Made by a program: the position numbers and the translations under genes. This document shows, one piece after another, positions 425-30,869 of a stretch of DNA of 42,727 nucleotides (positions within the stretch are counted from its first letter, which is position 1; every line of letters begins with the position of its first letter). This DNA is from a virus. The notes beneath the pieces were generated by a model. That model did no database searches and was not told the origin of the DNA. It saw nothing but the letters and a program-made list of their open reading frames with translations. The stretch is taken from positions 1-42,727 of IMG/VR virus record IMGVR_UViG_3300046009_000477; one strand, written 5' to 3'.

Positions 425-448
425 CTATTCGGATTGACCTAGGATATC
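381..448. repeat. Inverted repeat GATATCCTAGG / CCTAGGATATC spanning the giant gene stop
   Basis: GATATCCTAGG at 381-391 is matched by its exact reverse complement CCTAGGATATC at 438-448. Between them lies a second stem, GGGG 390-393 plus CTATGG 399-404 pairing with CCATAG 413-418 plus CCCC 419-422, leaving an eight-base loop. The right arm encodes the last residues of the giant protein, whose stop is at 425-427. It could form a large structure at the mRNA 3' end; the function is unknown. Confidence 0.55.
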
Positions 449-3400
449 ACCTAGGATACCAGATACACCTTTCTGGTCGTTAAATCCTATAGCTGGAGGT
501 CGAATAAGAGATTGTTGTTTCTGTCTTTTTTCTAGGTCTTTGAGATATTGCTGTCTCTCTAGATCTAGGTTTCTTGGTGTGACTACATTCTCAATACCAA
601 CTGGCTTGACTCTAGAAGCTGCCTTATCCATGTAAGGATATGGGTTTCTATGTACAAGCTCTAGATACTTTTGAATTGCATCGGCCTCTTGGAAAGCATT
701 GTTAGTTTCTAGCATTCTTGCGGGAATAGCTAGAGGGCTTCGGTTAATCAGAGTCTCAGCTCCGAATAGACCAGACAATGCCTTAAGGTTGGCTTCGCGT
801 TTCATAATAGCATCTGAAGTAATATCAGATAGATTGTAATAAATTCCTTGGATAGCACTCATGCTGGCTCCTGCACCCGCAGGCATTAAAGGCACACCAT
901 AGTACTGATAAGAACCTCCGGTCATACCAGAGATGGCACTAGCGCCAGCTTCTACTAGACCGTTGGCAATACCAAGGAATGGAATACGGCTTACACCGCG
1001 TAATACAAACTGAGAGGGCTGGTCTTCAAACTCCTGCATGATATCCTCAGTTTCTCTACCAGCCAACCATTCCTTAAACAATCCAATGATAGTATCCATA
1101 GCGGCATATAAGAAAATACCACTAGCAATATACTTGACTGTACTACGACTACCGAAATCAAGAATTACATTGTCTTGATAAGCGCGTACCCAAGAAGTCA
1201 GAGCATAGAACATTCTTCCAAAAGTACTACGAGAGTCTAAAGAAGTAACCTTATTTAAACCCTTAAGTTCAGAAGTAGAAGTTTTAATAATCAGGTCTTC
1301 AACCATATGAGCATATGCTGATATAGCAGATGCTAGAACTTCAGGATCAAACCCATCAACTGGATTATCTCTGAGGTCTTCATAGATATCTGAAATGTTA
1401 AAGATATTAATTCTACCATCTCTATGTCCTGCCTTTTCCATTGCCCATCGTAAATGTGCAATCTGTTCCTTGGTACTTAGACCATACTTTAGGAACAAGG
1501 CTGCTTCGTTGGGATCACCAAACTTAGCTTCGTGTCTGGCAATGCCAGCAAACTTTTTCCATAGAGCTGCTTCTGCTTTACTATCGGAAGCTGCTGCTTT
1601 TTTAAGAGCAGCTAGTTCATCAGCTGTTAAGGATTCTTGTAGAGCATCAAACAGCTTTTCAATACTACCCTTCTTCATATACTTCCAGATCAGTCTTTGA
1701 ATACGCTGTTTAGCCAATGCTCTTGTTCCATTGGTTATTGATTGCAACGAACCAATGCTTTGCATCCACTTACCAGCTTCTTCAAATGTTCTAGTTGAGG
1801 TTTCTATGATACCTTGAGCATCTCGGATATTCAACACACTGTTTGCTACTTTGGTTCCTAGACGAGAATCAGAACGGAATGCTCCGTATCCAATCTCTCC
1901 CATGAAACGGTTAGCAAAGTCAGTACGGAAGTTTTCTAGAATAAAGGTCATATCGCCAATATCTGACTCTAATAGCTTACGCTTTGACAGCCGATAATCA
2001 GCAAACACATAACGCATAGCTTTGATAACATTTACAGGTACACTGTATAACTCTGGGCTTTGCTTTGCTAGCTCAACCATAGTTTCTGCAAAAGCTGAGA
2101 TACCGTAACCCGCAGAGAACTTGAACCGAATAGCAGCAAGACCAACTCTAGCTAAGTAACCAGTTTCAGAATTAAGATAAGGTAGGGTATCAGCATTGAA
2201 CTGATATTCCTCTCTTAGTCTTTTAATACCTTCAGCCAAATTCTTTTGAGCATAGCTTAGTTGTTCTGGAGTCCATCCAGCAAGTTCTGCAATCCTATCA
2301 AAGTCTTCATAACTAGCTTTTTCTACATAATCAAATACATCTAGTATTGTGATTCCTGTCTGACCAAACATCCTATCTAGCTCTCTTTGGAACGCTAGTT
2401 CAAAATAGCGTCCCTTTAAGAAATAGAAGTAAGATTCAGAAAGGTTTGTTCGTAGAACAGCTCTAGTCTCAGGCGTACTTAATACTTCTTCTGGAGTTAA
2501 TCCACGAATGGGCAACGCAGTTTTACCCTCTGGATCAATCTTAAAGAAAGGTTGTTTAGCAACTGAATGGAAATCATCTGGGTTATTATAAGGATATTGC
2601 TTAGTCTTAAACTTAAGTATTTCCTTCATTTCCCGTTCAATGAGATTCTTGTTGTTAAGAATGGTACGCCATCTATCAGTATACATTGCTGTATTACCTT
2701 TGATAGCTTCCACATACTTAGCTTTATCAGCTGGAGCAAGATCAGTAACTTTTTCTGGAACACGGTAGATAACATACTTATCATCGAATTCCAGCACAAA
2801 GAATTTCTCTGGATTGCTCTTTCTGAGCAGCCTCAGAATTTCTGACTTACGACCAGTGATACCTTCCTTTTTGATTTCAGAATCAAATAACTTAAGAAGG
2901 GTATCATTACTAAACATGTTAGCAGATTCAGAATACTTAATTGTTCGATCAGGAGCAAAGACACTTAATGTCTTAGCATCGTCATCAAAGGCTACATCAA
3001 GCCAGCCCATAACAATCATGGTATTCATATCAAGCATTGGATCATTTAACTTCCGATTAGTTCGGGCAGTTACCATTGCGTTGATCAATGCTGCTCTAGA
3101 ATTTTGATCTAGTCTTGCCAGACCTTCATGGTCTAGCTGCACAGGAGCATAGGTTAGATGGGAAACAGGATTACCATTTTCATCTACAATACTCATTCGT
3201 CCTGTCTGTGTTTCTAGTTCTAATATGTTTCTATTGGCAATTTGCGAAGACTTGATAAGCATAGATGCTTGTTTAGCTACTTCTTGAGCTAGGTGTACTG
3301 GTACTCCTAGTGCAACAAGATCAGCTTTGTTAGGCTGTCTATTTTTATATAATGACTCATATACATACATATCAAGTTTAGCTCTCACATCATTTGTCAT

Positions 3401-6400
3401 TCTAGGAACAATGTTGTGGAGTCTAGCATACTCTCGGAAAATTCTAGTCATTAACCGACCTTCTTCTGAGCGTAGCTGCATTGCTGTTTTAAATGCAGTT
3501 TTACCAGCACCAACTAAGTGAGCCGTTTGTGTTCTTGTGTCATCAAAGAATCTAGAAGCAAAGGACAAACGATCTACAGTACTACGAATAGTTTTACCTA
3601 ATGCAGATGTACCCTGCGTTGCATTGGTTGACTTATTCATTAAGTCTTCCCACCACGATTTACTATCTCGTTGGTTTCCACCAAAGATAGCTCCCACCAT
3701 ATTATTAAATCTAAGCAACCTAGAAGCACCAGCTTCAGATTGATTGATTTTACTATCAATGATTTTTTCTTTAGGTGTTGGTGGTTCTTCTTCAATCTTA
3801 ATTGGTAACTCTGGTTGTCCCTCTCCTTCTCTGATAATTACATCAGCTCTAGGAGGTCCGGGTAATTTAGGGTCTTCACCAGCAGCATCAATAATGTCTT
3901 TTGCTTTTTTGCTTCTGGCTGATAACCTATAGTCACCTTCTGCATTTACTTTTACAAACTTAATTTCTTCAGGTAACAGAGGAATTACAAAGTCAGACTT
4001 ACCATCTACTTTAATTTCTTCTGCTGCCTTTTCTAACATCTGTCGATATGTTAGTGGCTTCTTTCCTGCTGGTCCTTCAGTTACTTTACGAAGAAGAGAC
4101 TCAGTGCGAAGACGGTCAACCGCCTTCCAGAACTTATCCATAATATCATCACCAAGAACACGCTTGTTTGCGTCAGCAATGTATTGATTTACATTGACAA
4201 AGTGTGCCCACATATTCTTAAACATTGGGGTCATGGTTGTGCCTGAGTCGGCTTCAATCTTTGATTCCCAATACTTTTTGATGAATGTCTTTAAGAAGTT
4301 AGAATCCATTCCAGCCTGTCGTAGCAAAGCAGGATCATCGTTAGTCTTGCGTTCTACTACATCAGTTTCTGGAGTCTTTACCAAATCGCTTTCGATTGGT
4401 TCGACAGGTACTTCTCTTTTTGGAGGAGTTGGAATTCGTGGAGTACTTGGTGTTACTGAAGGTGCTTCTAATTCTTTACCTTCACTAATTTCTTTTACAA
4501 CAGAATCAATAAAAGCTTTTACTTTATTATAAGGATCGCCTTTTTTAATTCCAGAAGTATTTAATGTTTTTAGTAGAGTAGAAAGAGAATCAACAGCTTT
4601 TTTGTTTTGTGCTAATACACCATCAAGACCAGTTTCTTTATAAAACTCAGATCTAATAGATCTCATTTCTTCTAGGGTATTACCCATTGGTAGCTGTTGC
4701 ATTTCATCATCAAGATTACCAAAGGATTCGTCTAATAGTTCTTTAACTGCTTTTAATTCAGGAGAACCATAAACATCATTAATCTCTTTACCAGTAAGTT
4801 TGATAAACCAAGAATTATCTTCTGTCATACCAAAGAATGGATACCATTGTCCAGCAGCAACATCTTTTTTACCGCCAAGACCAGTGCTAATATAAAAAGG
4901 AATATCTTTTCCTTTTACATTAATCACCACAGTCAATCGGTCTTCTAGTAGAACAAAAGGAGTATTACCTGAATCAGTGTTAAAAACTTTTGCATAACCA
5001 AGTTTAACTAAGTGATCTATTCTTTCTTTTCGTGTTTTAAACGAAGTAAGCAATTCTTTTTTAAGATCACTTAATTTTGTTTTACTTCCACCCTTTGATT
5101 TGGGTTTTGTTTGTAAAACTTTTTTCTTTACCACCTTAACAGGGAAAGATTCTTTTCGTGCTTTAGGTTGTGCTGGCTGTCTTGGTTTAGAGATAACATT
5201 TAATACAGGAGTCTTATCTACTGTAGTAATCTCAACCTCAGCAGGGGCATCTGGTTCTTTTTTAATAACAGTCTTTCCAACCACAGGAAGTTCTTCAATG
5301 TTGATTGGAATTACAGAACCATCCTTAAACACAAGAGCATCAAAACCCAATCTACTTGCAGACCTTAATACGCCTGCAAGTTTTTCAGGTTGACTCGCTA
5401 GTTCTTGGCTTGTACCAAAGTCCATTCCTAATGGCTTCTTTGGCGTAAACGCTACAGCTTCTTTAGCCGCTGTCTGTGAACCATGAATGATAGCATCAGC
5501 TTGTTCTGATGGTCGTAGAACCTTTTCTGGTTCGTTGCCAGTAACTTCATCAGTTACTTTGTAAAGAACAGCTTCTGTGTTTGCAGGCACAGGTACAGGA
5601 ACTGGATCTGGGTTCTTGTTCCTCAGCTTTTCAGCAAGCGCAGCGGTCTGTGCCATTCTTGCTCCAGCTTCAACAGGACTCTTTTCAGGCTTAGACTTAG
5701 CTTCAGTTACTTTGCTAGTTACTTTCTTTTCTGTATCTGGTTTTGCTTTATCAACAACACTAGCTACAGTATCAAAGTATTTGTTTAGAGCTGCTGTAAT
5801 AGCAGTTCGATCACTATCAAGTCTGATTGATGCTTGCTCAAAGACATCAGTAATCTTTGCAATTAGCTTTGCTCTATAGTTTCCAGCAGTTCGTGCTGAA
5901 CGCTTTAGCTTAGCTCCAGCTTCAGCCATGCTGCTTGATTCATTGAATACTCTGATGAGTTCAATCTCTTGTGGAGTAAGCAGTCTACCTTGGGTTGCTG
6001 TGTTGAATGCTAAAGCTTCACTCAGAATAGTAAACCGTATATCTTTCTTAGTAGTTACAATCCTATCAGCAGCAGTTGCTTTTACTTCTGGAGCTTTCTT
6101 TTGCTGATTCTTTCTGAGATTATTAGCAGTAGCATGGATATAGTTTACAAAGTCTTTAACTGTTGCTAGACTACCATTTTCAATCTTAGATAGAATTAGT
6201 TCTAAGTTTCCAGCGACACCACCAAGTTCTTTAGCTTGCTCTCTTGGCATCATCATGCTAGCAAGGGCTTCAGTAAAGTATTCATCAGTATCTGTACCTC
6301 TTGAATACTTTTCTCCAATACGAGCAATAACCTTCATTAAGTTATCTTTTGTTAAAACCGTAGTCTCCAAGCTTATAGCTTGAGCTTGAGCTTCAACAGT

Positions 6401-9400
6401 AACTTTAGGTTTAGCTGATGTTAACTTAATACCCCATCGTTGAGAGTCTTGATTAAACACAAGACCATCTTCGTCTATTAGTTTACTTACTGCTCCAAGA
6501 AGTTTCTTAGGAGTAGAGTACTTATTGGTAATATAACTATAGGTTGAAGATGAAAGGTTGGCTTTTAGAATAACTTTGATTTGCTCTACTGATAGCTTTT
6601 CTTTTAACATTAAAGCTAGTGAAGTATTAGCAACTTCTTTGTTAGGCCAGATAGGAGTTGATGGCTCAACATCTAGCATACCCTCAGTCTTGAGTCTTTC
6701 AATGTAAGCAAGATGGTTGACTTCAGTTACAACATTAGCTAGTTCTGGCAGTCCAATGTTATCTAAATAAATTCTTAGACGATCAATTAGATTGGTTGTA
6801 AGAGCTGCGTCTGTTCTCATTGCTTCAACAAGCTTAGCAACATCATCAGCAGATAGAGCATCGGCAACCAAAGCTTTACCTTTTGGTTGTGTAGAAGCAA
6901 TAGCATTGATTAAAGTCTCACCACTTGTTCCAAAGAATCCGACAGCATATGGAACACTGTTGCCTGTTGGGTCTAAGTAATCCATTGTATCTAGATTCTT
7001 TAAAGCATCTAAGTCTTCATAAGTTGCTGGAACCAATGTTCGCTTAGACTTGCCTTTAAAGATTGTACGAGAATAAACTGAGAATAGCTCATCCTTAATA
7101 AAGTCTAGTCTATCAAACTTATCCAAAGCTTCAATCTTTTTATAATCTAATGAGCCAACTAAGAATGCAATTTTGATCTGCATTGAAGTAAGCTGTGTTG
7201 TCTTATAATCATTATAGGTTTTAACTAGATCAACAAGGCTCTTAGTAAAGTTTCCGTTTGCATCAATAAAGGATCTTCGATCTGCTTTCATAATTGTCAT
7301 TGCAATAATGAAGCTAGGATCTCCTTTGGTTTTTGCGAATAGATCTACTTCAGCTTGATTGAGATGATATGGCTTCATATCCTGATTAGGAAATTCAGCA
7401 TCAATCTTTTTATTATATTCAGCAGCATCAGTTACAGTATCAAACATTGGATAAAGCTTAGAATAAGTTCTAGCCAAGGTTGGCATTGAAACCCTATCTT
7501 TTAGCTTGCTATCAACCTCTGTAATTGAATCAATAATATCTTTAGCCGCGTTATAGTAATCAGACTTATTAAACATTGCAGCAGCTAGTGTTATATTAGT
7601 TGCCAGTTTGTCTAAAACATTCCTTGCTCTAGATACTTGAGGAGGACTGAATGTGTTAATGGCTGCTTCTGCTTCGGTAAACAGAATTTGTGAGAATGTC
7701 TGAACAAACATTTCTTCTGCGTTTTGCATGTGGTACTGACCTAAGAAAGCTGAATCCAATAATGGATCAGTAGTCTCTGGTCGAACTCTCATTAGCTCAA
7801 CGCCACTTGTAAGAATTGTTTTGTTGTATAGTCTTAGAGCATCTAAGTAATTAGCTCCGCTTGCTTCGTGTGCAAAGTAAGCATGGCCTAATTCATGCAA
7901 TAGTGTCTTAGCTCTTCGGCGCTTAATGCTAGCTGTTGTTCCTGTGAAATCGGAATTCATTACAATAGAGTTGTTTCTTCTTCTGAAGATTCCAACAATA
8001 TCTGGCTGAATCTTGCCGTTCTCTAATACACTTTCAACAGCAAACTGAATATTAAAAGCTTTAGAACTAAAGTTAAGATGAACAGTAGAAGCTAGAAGTA
8101 AGTTTCTATCTATCTCTGAAATCATGTCATTTAAGACAAGTTCATTTACAAAGTCAAAGAATCTTAAAGCATTGTCTTTATCGCCATCAATAACAGATAC
8201 GAAACTATCTGGATCTTTGATAATAGCTTTGATTTTCTTTACTCTGTCTGGGCTAATCTTTGCAACAGTAATTGCATTCTTAGCGGCTCTAGCAACACGG
8301 TTGAGCGGTGAAAGTTTAGTTTCAACTTCTTCACCAGCAATATTCTTTATAATACTATCGGCAGTTTCATCACTAATAGTACCAGTAAGGTGCTGTTCAA
8401 CAACTGCTGCTTCAAGGCTATCTAATACTTCAGGAGGAACCGTTGATCTAATAGCAGCCTCACGGTCAGGCGCAGCTGCCATAGCAGACGCTGTTTCAAG
8501 CAGTCTGGCAGCTAGCTCATCTGAAGCAGCCTTGCGCTCTGCGGCTGTCTTACCTGTGTTACGAGCTTCTTTAAGTAGATCAGGCAGTCGCTTGCCAGAA
8601 GCCTTTTTGTTTTCTTCTAGTTCTTCTTTTAAAGCTTTGAATGCAGCCTTTGGCAGTTTCTTTTTTAAACGAGCAAACCAAGACTTTCGGCTTTTTTCTA
8701 GTTCGTCATAAAGACGCTCTCGCTCTTTAGGTAGACCTACTGAGTCTGTTTCTGCTTTCTTTGCGTCTTCCAATACCTTCTTGGAATTGAACAACACACG
8801 CATCTGGTCTTGAATAGACATGTTATCAAACTGTTCTGAGGATTCAATTAGACGCAAGCTACCTTCGGTTGGGGTTCGTCTAGCAACCTCAGACATGATT
8901 TCATAAATGTTTCTAATAGCACGGTTTGGTGCTACACGGGCAACATACTCAGGAATGGTTTCACCTTCGTATCGTCGTGTACCAGCATCTTCTGGTGTTG
9001 CTCTTGCAGCATCAGGAGATCTAGCAGCCTCTCTTGTTTCAACCCGGTCTACTCTTGCTTCTGTCCTAGAAACTAAAGTATCAGTTGTTACTTCTGTTTT
9101 GTTTAGAATTGATTCAGCTGCAAGCTGATCAGGAACAGGAGCATCAATTAAAGCTCGTTCTTCTTTACCAACAAAGTTACGAATGTTGTCAATTGTGTTT
9201 CCTAATGGGGTGCTTTCAAAAGTAAAGCGTTGATCAGCAATGTTTCTAACTCCAGTTACTGGATCAATTAGAACACCACTCATTCTATTTTTAAGAGCGC
9301 CAACGCCACTTCTTAGTAAACCACCGCCAAGTCCAAACACAGCACCAAATGCAGCACCACTTTCTAATGCGCTTCTAGCAACAAGAGAAAAATTGTAATC

Positions 9401-10696
9401 AGTCATTGCGTTTGGTGTAGCATACAAGGTAGACGCACCGAAAGCAATTTCTCTTTGCTGTCTTGCGTATTCAGCCATACCACCTTGAACAGCACCAAAA
9501 GTAAAGGATGCAGCAGTTCCTCGGATTAAACCAAAGTTCTTTACATAACTTGGCATGATACCAATAGGCATCTTATACAAGGTTTCTGCAGCATAGCCAG
9601 CTACCTTCATTGTTTTACTGGCTGCTCCGATAGCATCATATGCTTTTTTAAGACGCATGAATACGGATGTTCCGCCTAATGCACTTGTTACTGCACTAGT
9701 TGCACCTAGGGTAGCAACACCAGCAGCAGGCGTTCCAAATACAGAAGCTATACCAGCTAATCCTAATTCAGCAACAACCGATGGAATTGTATCGGGGCTA
9801 TTGATAACACCAGTTATAATTGTATCTCGGAATAGCCGACCTTTATCTAGTGTTGTTGGAGTATATGAAGCAGCTCGTCGCTGAAGATCTGTAATAGAAA
9901 GACGAGACATAATTCGCATAAAAGCTGCGTCTTCATTAGGAGCATCAGCAATTAAGTCAGCTGTGATTCCGTTTTCCAACAAACCTCTAGTTACAATCTC
10001 ATCAGAAAATTTAGAAGCAAACCAAGACTTAGAATCAAAGTTTGGATCAAACCTTGATAGTCTTTCTTCAATATCTTTAGTGTCACCCGCTAGTTCTCTG
10101 TCGGATAAAGAGATACCAAAAATTTCTTGAGCATCTAAAAGATCAATCCAGTTAAATCCTAACTTATCTTTTGCTTTCTTTTCTGCTTCAACATAAGCAA
10201 ACTTACTTGCAAGTTTTCTAATTAGGTTTTGGTTTTCTGTTAGTTGATCGACAGGAATAGAAGCAATATCTATTCCTTGCTCTGCCTCTAATAGTGTATT
10301 TAGTTCTTTTTGGTCTTGTGCTAAGGCTTCTTCTGTAAGTTCACTATCGCTCCATCTCCACGGAGTAAGAGGAGCTTTGCCTACTAACTGTCTTAATGCA
10401 GCACCCTTTAGTGGTTCATTAGCAATACCTAAGTACTGATCGGAAATACCAGTAAGGTTTCCTTCTAAAGTTCCAAGAGCTTGCTGAATAGCAAACCATT
10501 CATTATAGGTTTCTGTTTTCTTAGTTTCACCTCTGGTCCAATATAGTGGATCAGATATTTTTGAGCTATCTAAGAATTCTAAGTTATCTCCATCATATGC
10601 AGATAACACCTGTGCTGGTGTGTAAGCCTTAAGACTTAACAGGCCAGCACTAGGTCGGTCTTCAACTAAAGGAAAACCTTGTGTGTAATTAAACAT
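425..10696 (-). CDS. Giant ejection (internal virion) protein, 3423 aa, gp16-like position
   Basis: Largest gene in the window, about 2.6 times T7 gp16. ATG at 10696 follows AAGGATATGA. From the N-terminus: a helical region; small-residue-rich hydrophobic stretches at about 302-346 and 437-466 that could insert in membranes; a charged coiled-coil-like region (about 600-800); a zinc-peptidase motif HELGH at 934-938 with candidate third ligand E994/E995; two segments resembling sigma-factor regions 2 and 4 (about 1440-1525 and 1573-1625); proline-rich linkers near 1699, 2089 and 2280-2305; and a long helical C-terminal third with a hydrophobic segment near 3189-3206. I see no lytic transglycosylase motif of the sort T7 gp16 carries. 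By size, architecture and position after gp14/gp15-like genes it is inferred to be packed in the capsid and ejected into the host. The mix of domains also resembles phage polyvalent proteins. Role confidence is moderate; the ORF itself is certain. Confidence 0.8.
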   Translation of the reverse strand: MFNYTQGFPLVEDRPSAGLLSLKAYTPAQVLSAYDGDNLEFLDSSKISDPLYWTRGETKKTETYNEWFAIQQALGTLEGNLTGISDQYLGIANEPLKGAALRQLVGKAPLTPWRWSDSELTEEALAQDQKELNTLLEAEQGIDIASIPVDQLTENQNLIRKLASKFAYVEAEKKAKDKLGFNWIDLLDAQEIFGISLSDRELAGDTKDIEERLSRFDPNFDSKSWFASKFSDEIVTRGLLENGITADLIADAPNEDAAFMRIMSRLSITDLQRRAASYTPTTLDKGRLFRDTIITGVINSPDTIPSVVAELGLAGIASVFGTPAAGVATLGATSAVTSALGGTSVFMRLKKAYDAIGAASKTMKVAGYAAETLYKMPIGIMPSYVKNFGLIRGTAASFTFGAVQGGMAEYARQQREIAFGASTLYATPNAMTDYNFSLVARSALESGAAFGAVFGLGGGLLRSGVGALKNRMSGVLIDPVTGVRNIADQRFTFESTPLGNTIDNIRNFVGKEERALIDAPVPDQLAAESILNKTEVTTDTLVSRTEARVDRVETREAARSPDAARATPEDAGTRRYEGETIPEYVARVAPNRAIRNIYEIMSEVARRTPTEGSLRLIESSEQFDNMSIQDQMRVLFNSKKVLEDAKKAETDSVGLPKERERLYDELEKSRKSWFARLKKKLPKAAFKALKEELEENKKASGKRLPDLLKEARNTGKTAAERKAASDELAARLLETASAMAAAPDREAAIRSTVPPEVLDSLEAAVVEQHLTGTISDETADSIIKNIAGEEVETKLSPLNRVARAAKNAITVAKISPDRVKKIKAIIKDPDSFVSVIDGDKDNALRFFDFVNELVLNDMISEIDRNLLLASTVHLNFSSKAFNIQFAVESVLENGKIQPDIVGIFRRRNNSIVMNSDFTGTTASIKRRRAKTLLHELGHAYFAHEASGANYLDALRLYNKTILTSGVELMRVRPETTDPLLDSAFLGQYHMQNAEEMFVQTFSQILFTEAEAAINTFSPPQVSRARNVLDKLATNITLAAAMFNKSDYYNAAKDIIDSITEVDSKLKDRVSMPTLARTYSKLYPMFDTVTDAAEYNKKIDAEFPNQDMKPYHLNQAEVDLFAKTKGDPSFIIAMTIMKADRRSFIDANGNFTKSLVDLVKTYNDYKTTQLTSMQIKIAFLVGSLDYKKIEALDKFDRLDFIKDELFSVYSRTIFKGKSKRTLVPATYEDLDALKNLDTMDYLDPTGNSVPYAVGFFGTSGETLINAIASTQPKGKALVADALSADDVAKLVEAMRTDAALTTNLIDRLRIYLDNIGLPELANVVTEVNHLAYIERLKTEGMLDVEPSTPIWPNKEVANTSLALMLKEKLSVEQIKVILKANLSSSTYSYITNKYSTPKKLLGAVSKLIDEDGLVFNQDSQRWGIKLTSAKPKVTVEAQAQAISLETTVLTKDNLMKVIARIGEKYSRGTDTDEYFTEALASMMMPREQAKELGGVAGNLELILSKIENGSLATVKDFVNYIHATANNLRKNQQKKAPEVKATAADRIVTTKKDIRFTILSEALAFNTATQGRLLTPQEIELIRVFNESSSMAEAGAKLKRSARTAGNYRAKLIAKITDVFEQASIRLDSDRTAITAALNKYFDTVASVVDKAKPDTEKKVTSKVTEAKSKPEKSPVEAGARMAQTAALAEKLRNKNPDPVPVPVPANTEAVLYKVTDEVTGNEPEKVLRPSEQADAIIHGSQTAAKEAVAFTPKKPLGMDFGTSQELASQPEKLAGVLRSASRLGFDALVFKDGSVIPINIEELPVVGKTVIKKEPDAPAEVEITTVDKTPVLNVISKPRQPAQPKARKESFPVKVVKKKVLQTKPKSKGGSKTKLSDLKKELLTSFKTRKERIDHLVKLGYAKVFNTDSGNTPFVLLEDRLTVVINVKGKDIPFYISTGLGGKKDVAAGQWYPFFGMTEDNSWFIKLTGKEINDVYGSPELKAVKELLDESFGNLDDEMQQLPMGNTLEEMRSIRSEFYKETGLDGVLAQNKKAVDSLSTLLKTLNTSGIKKGDPYNKVKAFIDSVVKEISEGKELEAPSVTPSTPRIPTPPKREVPVEPIESDLVKTPETDVVERKTNDDPALLRQAGMDSNFLKTFIKKYWESKIEADSGTTMTPMFKNMWAHFVNVNQYIADANKRVLGDDIMDKFWKAVDRLRTESLLRKVTEGPAGKKPLTYRQMLEKAAEEIKVDGKSDFVIPLLPEEIKFVKVNAEGDYRLSARSKKAKDIIDAAGEDPKLPGPPRADVIIREGEGQPELPIKIEEEPPTPKEKIIDSKINQSEAGASRLLRFNNMVGAIFGGNQRDSKSWWEDLMNKSTNATQGTSALGKTIRSTVDRLSFASRFFDDTRTQTAHLVGAGKTAFKTAMQLRSEEGRLMTRIFREYARLHNIVPRMTNDVRAKLDMYVYESLYKNRQPNKADLVALGVPVHLAQEVAKQASMLIKSSQIANRNILELETQTGRMSIVDENGNPVSHLTYAPVQLDHEGLARLDQNSRAALINAMVTARTNRKLNDPMLDMNTMIVMGWLDVAFDDDAKTLSVFAPDRTIKYSESANMFSNDTLLKLFDSEIKKEGITGRKSEILRLLRKSNPEKFFVLEFDDKYVIYRVPEKVTDLAPADKAKYVEAIKGNTAMYTDRWRTILNNKNLIEREMKEILKFKTKQYPYNNPDDFHSVAKQPFFKIDPEGKTALPIRGLTPEEVLSTPETRAVLRTNLSESYFYFLKGRYFELAFQRELDRMFGQTGITILDVFDYVEKASYEDFDRIAELAGWTPEQLSYAQKNLAEGIKRLREEYQFNADTLPYLNSETGYLARVGLAAIRFKFSAGYGISAFAETMVELAKQSPELYSVPVNVIKAMRYVFADYRLSKRKLLESDIGDMTFILENFRTDFANRFMGEIGYGAFRSDSRLGTKVANSVLNIRDAQGIIETSTRTFEEAGKWMQSIGSLQSITNGTRALAKQRIQRLIWKYMKKGSIEKLFDALQESLTADELAALKKAAASDSKAEAALWKKFAGIARHEAKFGDPNEAALFLKYGLSTKEQIAHLRWAMEKAGHRDGRINIFNISDIYEDLRDNPVDGFDPEVLASAISAYAHMVEDLIIKTSTSELKGLNKVTSLDSRSTFGRMFYALTSWVRAYQDNVILDFGSRSTVKYIASGIFLYAAMDTIIGLFKEWLAGRETEDIMQEFEDQPSQFVLRGVSRIPFLGIANGLVEAGASAISGMTGGSYQYYGVPLMPAGAGASMSAIQGIYYNLSDITSDAIMKREANLKALSGLFGAETLINRSPLAIPARMLETNNAFQEADAIQKYLELVHRNPYPYMDKAASRVKPVGIENVVTPRNLDLERQQYLKDLEKRQKQQSLIRPPAIGFNDQKGVSGILGDILGQSE

Positions 10697-24917: not shown

Positions 24918-27900
24918 TTATTCTATTACAAAATACTCAATGCAAATAGCGCCACCCATACCACCTCTGGCATTATTTGCATCCCGCCCACTTTCAGCAG
25001 CACCACCAACTCCGGGTGGATAAAGGCTGCTTAGAGAAAAAGTAGAAGGAGCAGTACCAGAAGGAGCATTTGGTATGACTATATCTGTATTAGGTGCACT
25101 ACTAAATAAAGTTAAATTTAGATCTAAAGTTACACCAGAAGGTAAAGATCCGATTGAAAAAGAACCGCTGCCGTACGCACCAAGCCCTCCTGTTGCTGTT
25201 AAACCTAAGAAAGTTGTACTTCCTCCATTAGTACCAGTACCTGAATTTGAACCTGTGCCGCCACTACCAATGGTATAAGAATAACTGTTTCCGGGTATTA
25301 CTGATAGTTGTACAATACCAAAGCCACCAGAACCACCATTTTTACCGGGAAGTTGATAGACTGGAAATCCGTTAGTTTGATCGCCGCGACTACCGCCACC
25401 GCCTCCACCAAAAACCGTAACTGTAATATTTGTTATATTATTAGGAACAGTCCATGTACCAGAACTAGCAGTTAAAACTTGTGTAACTTTTTTAACTTTA
25501 AAATTTGTTTTAGCAGCAGTTACTGCTCCATCAGCAATCATGTTTGTAGAAACCTGAACAGCTTCTACGGTCCCTGATGTTGTACCAAGTACACGATTAG
25601 CAGCAATGTTAGCAATCTTAGCAGGAGTAATAGCACCATCAGAAATACTTCCAGTACCTAGTGTACCAAATTGTAGTGTACCGCCTGTACGATGGAGAAC
25701 TTGTCCATCAACAGAAGCAACAATATCAGCAACATTACCTACGGTGTTAGCAGACCGACCGATTACGGAGGTTGCTGCACCTGTTCTTAGCTTGGCATCG
25801 GTTACTGCATTGTCTGCAAGCTTAGCACCAGTGACCGCAAGGTTTACAATCTTACTGGTTGAGACAGCATCGTCAAGAAGCTGACTGTTTCCAATGCTGA
25901 GTGTACCTAGCTTAGCTGCAGTTACTGCACCATCGGCAATCATATTGGTCTGAATCTGAACTTCGGTATAAGCAGAACCAGCGGTTGTTGTACCAAGTAC
26001 ACGGTTAGCAGTAGTACTTAGTGGAAGCTTAGCAAGTGTTACATTGCCATCAGCAATCTTAGCTGTAGTTACAGCATTACTGGCAATCTTAGCATTTGTT
26101 ACGGCATTAGTAGCTAACTTATCTGCGGTAATTGCAGAGTCAACAACCATATCTGTAGCAACCTGTACTTCGCTAACTGCACCGCCAGCTGTGGTAGAAC
26201 CAAGGAGTCTGTTTGCGGTAGCGACAGCCTGCATCTTACCATAGGTTACTGCATTATTGGCTAGTAGCCCTGTGGTAATAGCAAGGTTCGCAATCTTGGC
26301 TGTGGTTACATTGGCATCCGCAAGCAATGCGGTTGTGATGTTTCCGTTACCAATGTTTGCTACGGCTGCTCCAGAAGCTAGCTTAGCTGCTGTGACATTG
26401 CCATCAGCAATTTTAGCTGTAGTGACTAGACCATCAGCAAGCATGTTGGCATTGATCTGAACTTCAGCAACAATACCACCAGCAACTGTAGAACCCAGTA
26501 CACGGTTGGCTGTAGCAACGGTTTGTAACTTGTTATAGGTTACTACACCGTTTGCAAGTTTATTACTTGTTACAGCACCGTCTGCAAGTTTATCACTTGT
26601 TACGGCAAGGTTATTAATCTTAGCGGTTTCGACAGCACTAGCAGCAATCTTACCAGCAGTGATTGCCAAGTTTGCAACCATGTCTGTGGCAACCTGTACT
26701 TCAGCAACATCAGCATTGGCTGTAGTAGAACCAAGCAACCGATTGGCTGTGGCTACCTTCTGAATCTTTGCATAGGTTACTGAGTTATTATCATAACCAG
26801 AAGTGCTATGGGTGTGAGAAGCAGAAGCAAAAGCTGTGGATGGCTGAGTAGCTGCAGTACCTAAGCCAAGAGTTGTTCTGGCATCAGCTGCAGTAGCATC
26901 ATCAATAAGACTTGCACCAAAGGTGCTTACAGAACTTGTATTGACTTTGCCGTTGAGGGCAGTCTGTAGACCAGTTACATCATTAATAACATGTGTGTGA
27001 CTACTGGCTGCTTTACCATCCAGAGCTGTCTGTAGATTAGTTACATCTGAGATAGCATGAGTATGGGATAGCGCGGCCTTGTTGTTTAGTTCTGTCTGTA
27101 GGTTAGTTACATTTGAAATACCATGAGTGTGACCAACATTGGTCTTACCATCAAGGGTTGTCTGAAGGTTGGTAACATCAGAGATAGCATGGCTATGTAC
27201 TGTGTTGGCCTTGCCATCAAGACTTGTCTGTAGGTTTGTAACCTGTGAAATGGTATGAGTATGGCTAGCTGCAGCAAAGGCTGTAGAAGCCTGAGTAGCA
27301 GCTGTACCAAGACCAAGAGTTACTCTCATGCTAGCAGCGTCTGTATCATCTAAAATAGTTAGAGCAAAGCTACTGATTTGGGAATCATCAACCTTAGCAT
27401 CAAGCGAAGCCTGTAGGTTTGTAACATCACTAATTGCGTGGGTATGTGCAACTGGAGTTCTAGCGTTAGTTAGACGGCTATCGGAACCAGTAACAACCTC
27501 ACCACTAGCAGCATCTCCTAGTGCAGAAATATTTAGAGTAGCAGAAGAACCTAAACCAAGAGTTGCTCTAGCTGTTCCAGCAGATGCATCATCAAGTAAA
27601 GTCAGTGCAAACGCAGAAATCTGCGAATCATCTACCTTAGCATCTAGTGATGCTTGTAGATTTGTGACATCACTGATTGCATGAGTATGTGAGGCCGCAG
27701 CAGCACCAAGGGTAGTCCTCTGTGCGGCGGCATCAGCATCATCCAGCAAGGCACGACCAGCAGCGGTTACTGTGATTTCTTCGACATCGCCAGTTCCTGC
27801 AGTCGCTCTACCTAGTACGGTATTGGTATTAATATTCTGAATTTTACCAAATGTGACAGCATCGTTTGCAATCTTAGCACCGCTAATAGCATTGTTTACA

Positions 27901-30869
27901 ACTGTCCAAGTATTGCCAGCAATTGTAATATCACCATAAGTACCATCCGCAAGAATTGCAGAAGGTGCTACTGGCTCACCAACCTGACTAATTGTAATAC
28001 CACCGGGAGTATTGCTAATTGCAATATTAGAACCACCAAGAATATTAGCTAAAGTAAATCCTGTGTTATTACCAATAAGAATCTGACCAGCCGTTGGTGT
28101 TGTTGAAACACCAGTACCACCTCTTGCAACTGATAGTGTACCTGAAGTAATATCAGTAGTTGAGTGTGTATGGCTTGTTGCTGCCTTGCCATCTAGTGTT
28201 GTTTGTAAATTAGTGATATCACCAATTACATGGATATGAGCTGTGGGTGTTCGTGCATTTGTTAGACGGGTATCATCACCCATTACAACCTGAGTTGTTG
28301 TGGCATTTACACCAACAGCTGGAGCAAACTTAGCTGCTGCTGTTCCAGCATCTGTAATATCAGCAAGAACATGTGTGTGAGCAGTTGGAGTTCTAGCATT
28401 TGTTAAACGAGTATCATCACCCATAACAACTTGAGTAGTGGTTGCGTTTACTCCAATAGCAGGAGCAAATTTAGATGCTGCTGTTCCGGCATCTGTAATA
28501 GCTGCTAATGTGTGGGTATGGCTAGCTGCTGCAAAGGCTGAAGAAGCCTGTGTAGCGGCAGAGCCTAGCTCTAAAGTTGTTCTGGCTGCAGCAGCGGTTG
28601 TATCATCAATAAGAGTTAGACCAAACGCACTGATTTGAGAGTCATCAATCTTAGCGTCTAGAGCGGTTTGAAGACCAGTGACATCACCAATAGCGTGGGT
28701 ATGTGTGGTATTTGCCTTGCCAGCAAGGGTGGTATCAAGATTAGTGATATCACTCATTGCGTGGGTATGGCTGCTAGCTGCCTTGCCATCTAGTGCAGTC
28801 TGTAAACCAGTTACATTGGCAATAGTATGGGTGTGGCTTACAGCGGCTTTATTATCTAGCTCTGTCTGTAGGTTAGTAACCTGAGAGATAGTATGCGTAT
28901 GGCTTGTTGCTGCTTTACCATCTAATGATGACTGAAGATTTGTTACTTCAGCGATTGTATGGGTATGTGCAATAGCAGCCTTATTATCAAGGTTTGTCTG
29001 TAGGTTTGCTACATCTGCAATAACATGGGTATGTCCAACAAGAGCCTTAGCATTTAGCTCAGTCTGTAAGTTAGTTACATCTGAGATTGGATGGATATGG
29101 GCAAGTGGTGTACGAGCATCGCTTAGACGAGCATCATTACCCTGACAGAAAGTACTTACAGTTGTGCCGAATGTACCAGTAGAAATCAATCCATTAGAAC
29201 TAGTAATGAGAGGAAGGTTTGGTGTTGTACCAATCTGTCCTGCACTATTGATGGAGCCGTGGCTGTGAACAGCTGGTGCAAAGAAAGCTACAGCTTCTAA
29301 AGCTGCGGTCCCTAACTGGAGATACTGACGCATATCAGCTACGCTGTTTTCGTCAATTAGCTCTCTACCAGCAGCAGTAATAGCAATGGTTTCTACATTG
29401 CCTGTACCAGATGCTGCTCTTCCTAATAATGTATTGCTTGGAATCTGCTGCATCTTGGGGAAAGATACGGCATTATCCACAACCATATTAGTGTTTACCT
29501 GTACTTCAGATACTGTTCCGTTTGCTGCGGTAGAACCAAGAACACGGTTTGCTGTTACGACTGTCTGTAGCTTATCGTAAGTTACAGCGTTGTTGTTAAT
29601 AGCATTAGTTAGGACAGACCCTGCCTGAAGATTTGAAGAACTTACAGAACCATTTGCTAACTTAGCATTGGTTACTGCCGCAGTTGCAATCATATCAGCA
29701 TTAATTTGTACTTCTGAGATATGACTATCTGCGGTTGTTGTGCCTAGTACACGATTACCAGTAAGTGATAGCTGCATCTTAGCATAAGTTACAGCATGGT
29801 CTGCTAGATCTGCAGTAATTACAGCACCAGTATTAATTGTAAATGTCGTACCATTGCTTCCAACGGTTAGGTCGCCTTTGTTACCATCTGTAAGTGGCGT
29901 AGTTACATTGAGCTGAGTACCAACCATAGATAGGCTGGAGCCTACAGTAAGTTCCTGTGGGTCGCCTGAGCCAGCTGCAGAGCCACGACCAATAAGGCGT
30001 GAGGCTGCGGTGACATCCTGCATCTTACTATAAGTAACAGCATTGGGATTAATACGCCAGTCTGTAAGTGGAGATACGACTTCAATATCGTTTCTCTGTC
30101 CAGCTGGTAGTGGCTTTACATCAATAGTGTTACCAGTTACATCAAAGCCCGGACCTACGGACATCTCGCGTACATCGCGGAAGTTAATAGGATCAGAACC
30201 TGAACCAAGAAGCTTTAGTGGACCACTAAGATCCTGAAGTTTGGCAAAAGTTACTGCCTTGTTTAGAATCTTAGGACTAGTAATTGCATTGTCTAGAATC
30301 TGTTCGGTGCTGACGCTGACAATAGTTACCTTGTTTAGAATTTCTTGAACTAGGAATAGAAGCTGTGTTGTGTTCAGGTTTAGCTGAGCAGTTGTTAGCT
30401 TGCTACCGGGAGTCCAAAGAACTAAAGAAGTATTACTGACAGTCTTACGGCGAACAATAATATTATCGCCTTCTCGTAGTTGTGGTACAGCAATTGTCTG
30501 AGTAGTACCAGCATTTGGTCCACTGATTGGTACATAACTAAAGTTATATACATCAGGTCCAGAGGCGGGTAGGTTTACATTTACGATTCGGTTTCCAGTA
30601 GTATCATAAGTAATACGATCACTTGGAATAATAAACACATTCTGTTTATCAACTACGGATACATTGGTGTCGTTTAGGAAGTCAGGAATCGTGGCGGTTA
30701 CGCCGTTTCTATCAATAGAAAAGATTCGCTCAACTTCTAATTGGGCATTGTGAGGAATACCGGGAATCAAATCCAATGTGTTATAAAGAATTGGATTGAA
30801 GGTGGTAGCTCCTACAGAATAGCCATAAGTACCTTGCGAAGTGACAACAGTTATGTTGGAATAACTCAT
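24918..30869 (-). CDS. Long tail fiber protein, T7 gp17-type anchor, 1983 aa
   Basis: The N-terminal ~180 residues are the tail-anchor region: NAQLEVERIF at 41-50, then VYNFSYVPISGP, IIVRRKT and a helix with PGSKLTTAQLNLNTTQLLF, which parallels the gp17 anchor layout. The shaft holds two repeat types: about 22-residue units HTHxIxxVTxLQTxLDxKAA, with 20 HxH motifs in all, and units AVTYxKMQ...ANRxLG(S/T)TTA...VQVxTDM...AITxxKLA. The last ~175 residues form a glycine-rich tip (GGGGGG, GGSGGFG, CIEYFVIE) likely to contact the receptor. Length is about 3.6 times T7 gp17 (553 aa). GGAGA sits before the ATG. Residues 41-142 are similar to part of the neighbouring tail tubular protein B. Confidence 0.88.
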   Translation of the reverse strand: MSYSNITVVTSQGTYGYSVGATTFNPILYNTLDLIPGIPHNAQLEVERIFSIDRNGVTATIPDFLNDTNVSVVDKQNVFIIPSDRITYDTTGNRIVNVNLPASGPDVYNFSYVPISGPNAGTTQTIAVPQLREGDNIIVRRKTVSNTSLVLWTPGSKLTTAQLNLNTTQLLFLVQEILNKVTIVSVSTEQILDNAITSPKILNKAVTFAKLQDLSGPLKLLGSGSDPINFRDVREMSVGPGFDVTGNTIDVKPLPAGQRNDIEVVSPLTDWRINPNAVTYSKMQDVTAASRLIGRGSAAGSGDPQELTVGSSLSMVGTQLNVTTPLTDGNKGDLTVGSNGTTFTINTGAVITADLADHAVTYAKMQLSLTGNRVLGTTTADSHISEVQINADMIATAAVTNAKLANGSVSSSNLQAGSVLTNAINNNAVTYDKLQTVVTANRVLGSTAANGTVSEVQVNTNMVVDNAVSFPKMQQIPSNTLLGRAASGTGNVETIAITAAGRELIDENSVADMRQYLQLGTAALEAVAFFAPAVHSHGSINSAGQIGTTPNLPLITSSNGLISTGTFGTTVSTFCQGNDARLSDARTPLAHIHPISDVTNLQTELNAKALVGHTHVIADVANLQTNLDNKAAIAHTHTIAEVTNLQSSLDGKAATSHTHTISQVTNLQTELDNKAAVSHTHTIANVTGLQTALDGKAASSHTHAMSDITNLDTTLAGKANTTHTHAIGDVTGLQTALDAKIDDSQISAFGLTLIDDTTAAAARTTLELGSAATQASSAFAAASHTHTLAAITDAGTAASKFAPAIGVNATTTQVVMGDDTRLTNARTPTAHTHVLADITDAGTAAAKFAPAVGVNATTTQVVMGDDTRLTNARTPTAHIHVIGDITNLQTTLDGKAATSHTHSTTDITSGTLSVARGGTGVSTTPTAGQILIGNNTGFTLANILGGSNIAISNTPGGITISQVGEPVAPSAILADGTYGDITIAGNTWTVVNNAISGAKIANDAVTFGKIQNINTNTVLGRATAGTGDVEEITVTAAGRALLDDADAAAQRTTLGAAAASHTHAISDVTNLQASLDAKVDDSQISAFALTLLDDASAGTARATLGLGSSATLNISALGDAASGEVVTGSDSRLTNARTPVAHTHAISDVTNLQASLDAKVDDSQISSFALTILDDTDAASMRVTLGLGTAATQASTAFAAASHTHTISQVTNLQTSLDGKANTVHSHAISDVTNLQTTLDGKTNVGHTHGISNVTNLQTELNNKAALSHTHAISDVTNLQTALDGKAASSHTHVINDVTGLQTALNGKVNTSSVSTFGASLIDDATAADARTTLGLGTAATQPSTAFASASHTHSTSGYDNNSVTYAKIQKVATANRLLGSTTANADVAEVQVATDMVANLAITAGKIAASAVETAKINNLAVTSDKLADGAVTSNKLANGVVTYNKLQTVATANRVLGSTVAGGIVAEVQINANMLADGLVTTAKIADGNVTAAKLASGAAVANIGNGNITTALLADANVTTAKIANLAITTGLLANNAVTYGKMQAVATANRLLGSTTAGGAVSEVQVATDMVVDSAITADKLATNAVTNAKIASNAVTTAKIADGNVTLAKLPLSTTANRVLGTTTAGSAYTEVQIQTNMIADGAVTAAKLGTLSIGNSQLLDDAVSTSKIVNLAVTGAKLADNAVTDAKLRTGAATSVIGRSANTVGNVADIVASVDGQVLHRTGGTLQFGTLGTGSISDGAITPAKIANIAANRVLGTTSGTVEAVQVSTNMIADGAVTAAKTNFKVKKVTQVLTASSGTWTVPNNITNITVTVFGGGGGGSRGDQTNGFPVYQLPGKNGGSGGFGIVQLSVIPGNSYSYTIGSGGTGSNSGTGTNGGSTTFLGLTATGGLGAYGSGSFSIGSLPSGVTLDLNLTLFSSAPNTDIVIPNAPSGTAPSTFSLSSLYPPGVGGAAESGRDANNARGGMGGAICIEYFVIE
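25500..29800 (-). repeat. Tandem repeats coding the fiber shaft
   Basis: About 66-base units encoding HTHxIxxVTxLQTxLDxKAA are densest at 28600-29120 and 26960-27280. Units encoding AVTYxKMQ/ANRxLG/AxITxxKLA lie at about 25500-26800 and 29440-29800. Several are near-identical at the DNA level, for example the DTRLTNARTPTAHTH stretches near 28250 and 28390. Such arrays are prone to unit gain and loss and to assembly collapse. Confidence 0.8.

Follow-up and report, generated by a model that had tools for sequence, protein, structure and literature searches.

A predicted LuxR/GerE-type helix-turn-helix in the mosaic middle of a giant, probable ejection protein of viral origin

The window, i.e., the whole stretch of DNA analysed here, is a viral record of 42,727 bases, and the region under study (window 5855-6331) lies inside a single minus-strand frame of 3423 amino acids, at a place where the plus strand is not open. 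The motifs quoted in the initial annotation are all present in this frame, at residues 1456-1467, 1471-1482, 1513-1529, 1572-1591, and 1595-1614, and the features of the locus are collected in Table 1. The neighbouring genes form a set typical of T7-like podoviruses, which includes the head-tail adaptor (approximately 30% identical to its counterparts in T7-like phages), capsid, scaffold, tail tube, nozzle, terminase, and ribonucleotide reductase.

The gene of the giant protein closes a block similar to gp14-gp15-gp16 of T7, in which a weakly gp14-like gene is followed by one or two more and then by the giant-protein gene, which therefore appears to occupy the gp16 position. As neither Pfam nor the comparison of profiles with PDB chains detected similarity to gp16, the reading of this product as a probable ejection (internal virion) protein is drawn from its position and its size. 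It resembles T7 gp16 in apparent gene position, size class, and phage type, although it is more than twice as long and has a mosaic middle.

Table 1. Features of the giant-protein locus, in window positions
Feature	Position	Strand	Basis or remark
Giant protein, 3423 aa; probably a polyvalent-type ejection (internal virion) protein	425..10696	-	Open reading frame, position
Residues 1868-2076, in the window and L001 only; includes the Cellulophaga-phage-like stretch (~1910-1992)	4469..5095	-
LuxR/GerE-type helix-turn-helix, residues 1573-1615 (flanking helices ~1551-1625)	5852..5980	-	Profiles, model (predicted)
All-helical domain, residues 1447-1535	6092..6358	-	Not sigma-like on test
Upstream domain, residues 1345-1425	6422..6664	-	Alignment; conserved among close relatives
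Site after residue 1343; ADP-ribosyltransferase (ART-PolyVal) domain in relatives L001 and L003, absent from the window	6667..6668	-
HELGH zinc-metallopeptidase-type motif, residues 934-938	7883..7897	-	All homologs (HEIGH in L006)
gp14-like internal virion protein, 221 aa	14983..15648	-	Weak: Pfam T7_gp14, E 0.0074, residues 7-213, below cut-off

Homologs of the giant protein were found in seven viral contigs, one of which (L001) is 98% identical, while the others share 46-78% identity over the conserved parts. Isolate phages yielded no relatives of either the region or the C-terminal part, bacterial genomes yielded no homologs of the region, and a wider search through the tail gene returned 14 loci, with the region being absent from all 13 records examined. 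The alignment of the homologs indicates that the two ends of the protein are conserved (N-terminal residues 1-880 and C-terminal residues 2077-3423) and that the middle is a mosaic which contains effector-type domains, namely an HExxH motif, for which the family support consists of a weak PHROG metallo-protease match, and, in the sister phages, an ADP-ribosyltransferase.

This ADP-ribosyltransferase (ART) occupies a slot approximately 100 residues upstream of the region under study. The ART-PolyVal domain of L001 was identified above the cut-off (E 1.5e-17), and at this site L003 has another ART, which shares only 34% identity with that of L001. Two close pairs, the window and L001 (98%) and L004 and L003 (95-96%), differ by the whole of the domain, which means that on at least two occasions the slot has either gained or lost a domain, and these near-identical phages with and without the enzyme represent natural material for probing the function of the domain. 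In L006 and L007, an insert of approximately 850 residues is found near the slot instead of an ART (residues ~1434-2286 of 4160 aa in L006), and no convincing family match was obtained for this insert.

The second half of the region is supported, by both profiles and a structural model, as a helix-turn-helix (HTH) of the LuxR/GerE type. When compared with the alignment of the entire giant protein, the LuxR profile selects residues 1573-1615 (E 8.7e-5), and the reversed profile has no match in the protein. Applied to single copies, the LuxR HMM matches this position in each of the six close homologs with 6.0-11.5 bits, in comparison with 2.3 bits for the best of 300 shuffled proteins, although the HTH cannot be recognised with this HMM in the most distant homologs, L006 and L007. 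The signal is thus beyond chance; hand-entered LuxR-family, RpoE, and RpoD sequences served as yardsticks. A single-sequence search returned RcsB at the HTH position (E 0.16), a six-row profile search returned DevR and further LuxR-type regulators (E 0.14-1.1), and these and other response regulators recur there as PDB and NCBIfam matches. Pfam GerE was matched in three of the six members (best E 0.0063) and, over whole records, in four of eight (E down to 8e-5), always at the HTH and always under the curated cut-off, which no match at this position exceeds. Further Pfam matches below threshold (Shikimate_DH, CHAD, YopH_N, HTH_Tnp_4, and RNase_3_N) were left unused, and PDB matches to a designed TIM barrel and uteroglobin fusions were discarded, being sums of weak repeated matches.

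The structure prediction and Foldseek search proposed in the initial annotation agree with these results, given that the AlphaFold2 model has three HTH helices (134-145, 149-155, and 160-180) and matches the C-terminal, DNA-binding domain of DosR with a probability of 0.80, a TM-score of 0.77 on the target, and a superposition at 1.2 Å. The sequence signature and the helix lengths are shared with the output domains of DevR/DosR, RcsB, and NarL. Structurally, sigma region 4 and the LuxR domains fall within the same broad group, and the initial annotation had named both for these residues, of which the LuxR assignment stands, so that one refuting outcome it had named, an absence of sigma and LuxR matches, did not occur. 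The sigma-specific one is not supported, given that the sigma region-4 profiles do land on the HTH, albeit with scores no better than the shuffled and reversed controls, that Sigma70_r4_2 has no match in the window record, and that the LuxR profile is by far the better match to these residues.

On the other hand, the first half of the region, which had been proposed as sigma region 2, did not behave as such in any of the profile searches. The profiles of ECF and sigma-70 region 2 land elsewhere in the protein, with scores no better than the reversed or shuffled controls, and Sigma70_r2 of Pfam was found in none of the eight records. By contrast, when 17 left-out real sigma factors were embedded at the same position, hhalign found all 17 with E below 1e-15, although these were public records chosen by their similarity to RpoE or RpoD, so that the control favours detectable sigma factors. 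The residues that recall region 2 are not retained in the relatives either, where VIARIGEKYSRG is replaced by VVSRIIKQSMRG or IVSQIIKKASRG, and DEYFTEALASMM by DDYFTGAASSMI, with the loss of the likeness to the sigma motif. While the order that the initial annotation had described, of a helical domain, a linker, and an HTH, is indeed that of a small sigma factor, the spacing it had invoked is not, with approximately 43 residues between DEYFTEALASMM and KDFVNYIH in comparison with approximately 24 between the corresponding motifs of Escherichia coli RpoE.

That the region might be a degenerate ECF-type sigma factor, with regions 2 and 4, which is ejected and redirects the host RNA polymerase, is favoured by this order of domains and, in particular, by the Foldseek search with the whole region, the one place where sigma factors were matched, in which the ECF sigma factors BldN and CnrH come first, many other sigma factors follow, and phage sigma factors appear in BFVD. 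These matches have a TM-score of 0.25 per query length, hardly above the 0.22 obtained for the DosR domain, which is an HTH only, and their rmsd of 15-20 Å suggests that only one part of the model superposes, for which reasons the first half was modelled alone. This model is of good quality (pLDDT 83, pTM 0.76), and its 24 Foldseek matches in the PDB include zero sigma factors. The whole-region matches thus most likely stem from the common HTH, and the identity as a sigma factor was rejected, as region 2 has no profile, Pfam, or fold match under conditions in which embedded real sigma factors are detected. The ejected sigma factor of the initial annotation, left with neither region 2 nor a sigma-specific region 4, is very improbable.

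The conservation of the HTH points in two directions. It is present in all six close copies, no copy has a frameshift or a stop, and the positions of the LuxR signature (LT..E..L / S..TA..Y...L.AK) are retained among the close relatives while the remainder varies. However, it diverges more than its surroundings and is among the least conserved stretches of the giant protein, with 38-64% identity among the closer relatives in comparison with 72-81% for the C-terminal part (identities were used for this comparison, and dN/dS was set aside, as synonymous sites are near saturation except in the closest pair). This low conservation, together with its being unrecognisable in L006 and L007, places the HTH outside the core work of the giant protein; selection on it may be shifting, or it may simply be in decay. 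A three-helix bundle that has decayed or is purely structural, that does not bind DNA, and that was left behind when a domain was inserted into a rapidly changing spacer, would account for this divergence, for the loss in the two distant homologs, and for the Pfam scores below threshold, and it would leave the retained signature and the intact frames unaccounted for; it is rather unlikely, though it deserves more weight than the other alternatives considered here.

The loss in L006 and L007 also bears on a role of the HTH in the capsid or at entry, in which it would hold the end of the phage DNA to the internal core and pass this end into the channel. In T7, the gp16-like proteins belong to the core that surrounds the portal and are active in genome entry, and the gp14-like neighbour gene is consistent with such a role. 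Parts that handle the genome would nevertheless be expected to be conserved, whereas this HTH is lost where the N- and C-terminal parts persist, which makes a capsid or entry role distinctly unlikely.

The HTH is read here most likely as the part of an ejected effector that targets DNA. We infer that the protein is ejected, that its middle reaches the cytoplasm, and that the HTH binds DNA there, the choice of DNA being equally a matter of interpretation, and we give about even chances to the reading of a LuxR/GerE-type DNA-binding domain which targets DNA from the variable middle of an ejected, polyvalent-type protein at the gp16 position. The giant protein would be incorporated into the capsid and leave it early, by ejection, with its ends forming or crossing a trans-envelope channel and its middle entering the cytoplasm, where the HTH may bind DNA and tether the adjacent enzyme domains to the host nucleoid or to promoters. 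For a DNA-binding domain beside an ART slot, the simplest aim would be to bring enzyme domains to DNA-bound targets. Alternatively, the HTH itself may block or aid transcription by the host RNA polymerase until the T7-like RNA polymerase of the phage takes over. A phage-type polymerase of this kind is encoded by relatives, being present in five of the eight records, so the need for the host enzyme probably falls mainly in the opening phase, the time at which an ejected protein could act. The most specific form of this proposal, in which the LuxR-type domain of an ejected, sequence-specific DNA-binding effector steers interchangeable enzymes, such as the ADP-ribosyltransferase and the peptidase, to promoters of the host or the phage in the first moments of infection, is unlikely as a whole.

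LuxR HTHs are usually dimeric and C-terminal. In comparison with the LuxR/GerE regulators, that of the giant protein is internal to 3423 aa, comes without a receiver domain, and scores below the Pfam cut-off, and its DNA binding is putative. A few phages are known to achieve early takeover through proteins that they eject, namely T4 with Alt, and N4 and the crAss-like phages with their polymerases; if the present reading is true, a T7-type ejection protein that carries a DNA-binding module, beside the variable ART slot, would provide a further way of aiming ejected effectors. The N4 virion RNA polymerase and the virion proteins of the crAss-like phage phi14:2 are also giant proteins that act, or are thought to act, in the cell, although no polymerase domain was found in the giant protein, unlike in that of N4.

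A further likeness is found in the polyvalent proteins of phages and conjugative elements (Iyer et al. 2017, PMC5512222), which are likewise very large and multidomain, and with which the giant protein shares the ART-PolyVal domain of its sister copy, a metallopeptidase-type motif, and variable domains. The word sigma is absent from that paper, where the term helix-turn-helix is used solely for the winged HTH of SnoC. Polyvalent proteins commonly carry ARTs, and T4 Alt is the model of an ejected enzyme that acts on RNA polymerase.

Outside the region under study, residues ~1910-1992 (window ~4720-4970) have 42% identity with the structural protein gp039 of the Cellulophaga phage phi17:2 and are weakly similar to g067 of phi14:2, which is encoded beside the virion RNA polymerase gene of that phage; this stretch is missing in L003, L004, L005, L006, and L008. 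Finally, elsewhere in the window (24918-30869), a protein of 1983 aa is built from ten or more phage tail repeats (PTR) together with DUF5907 repeats.
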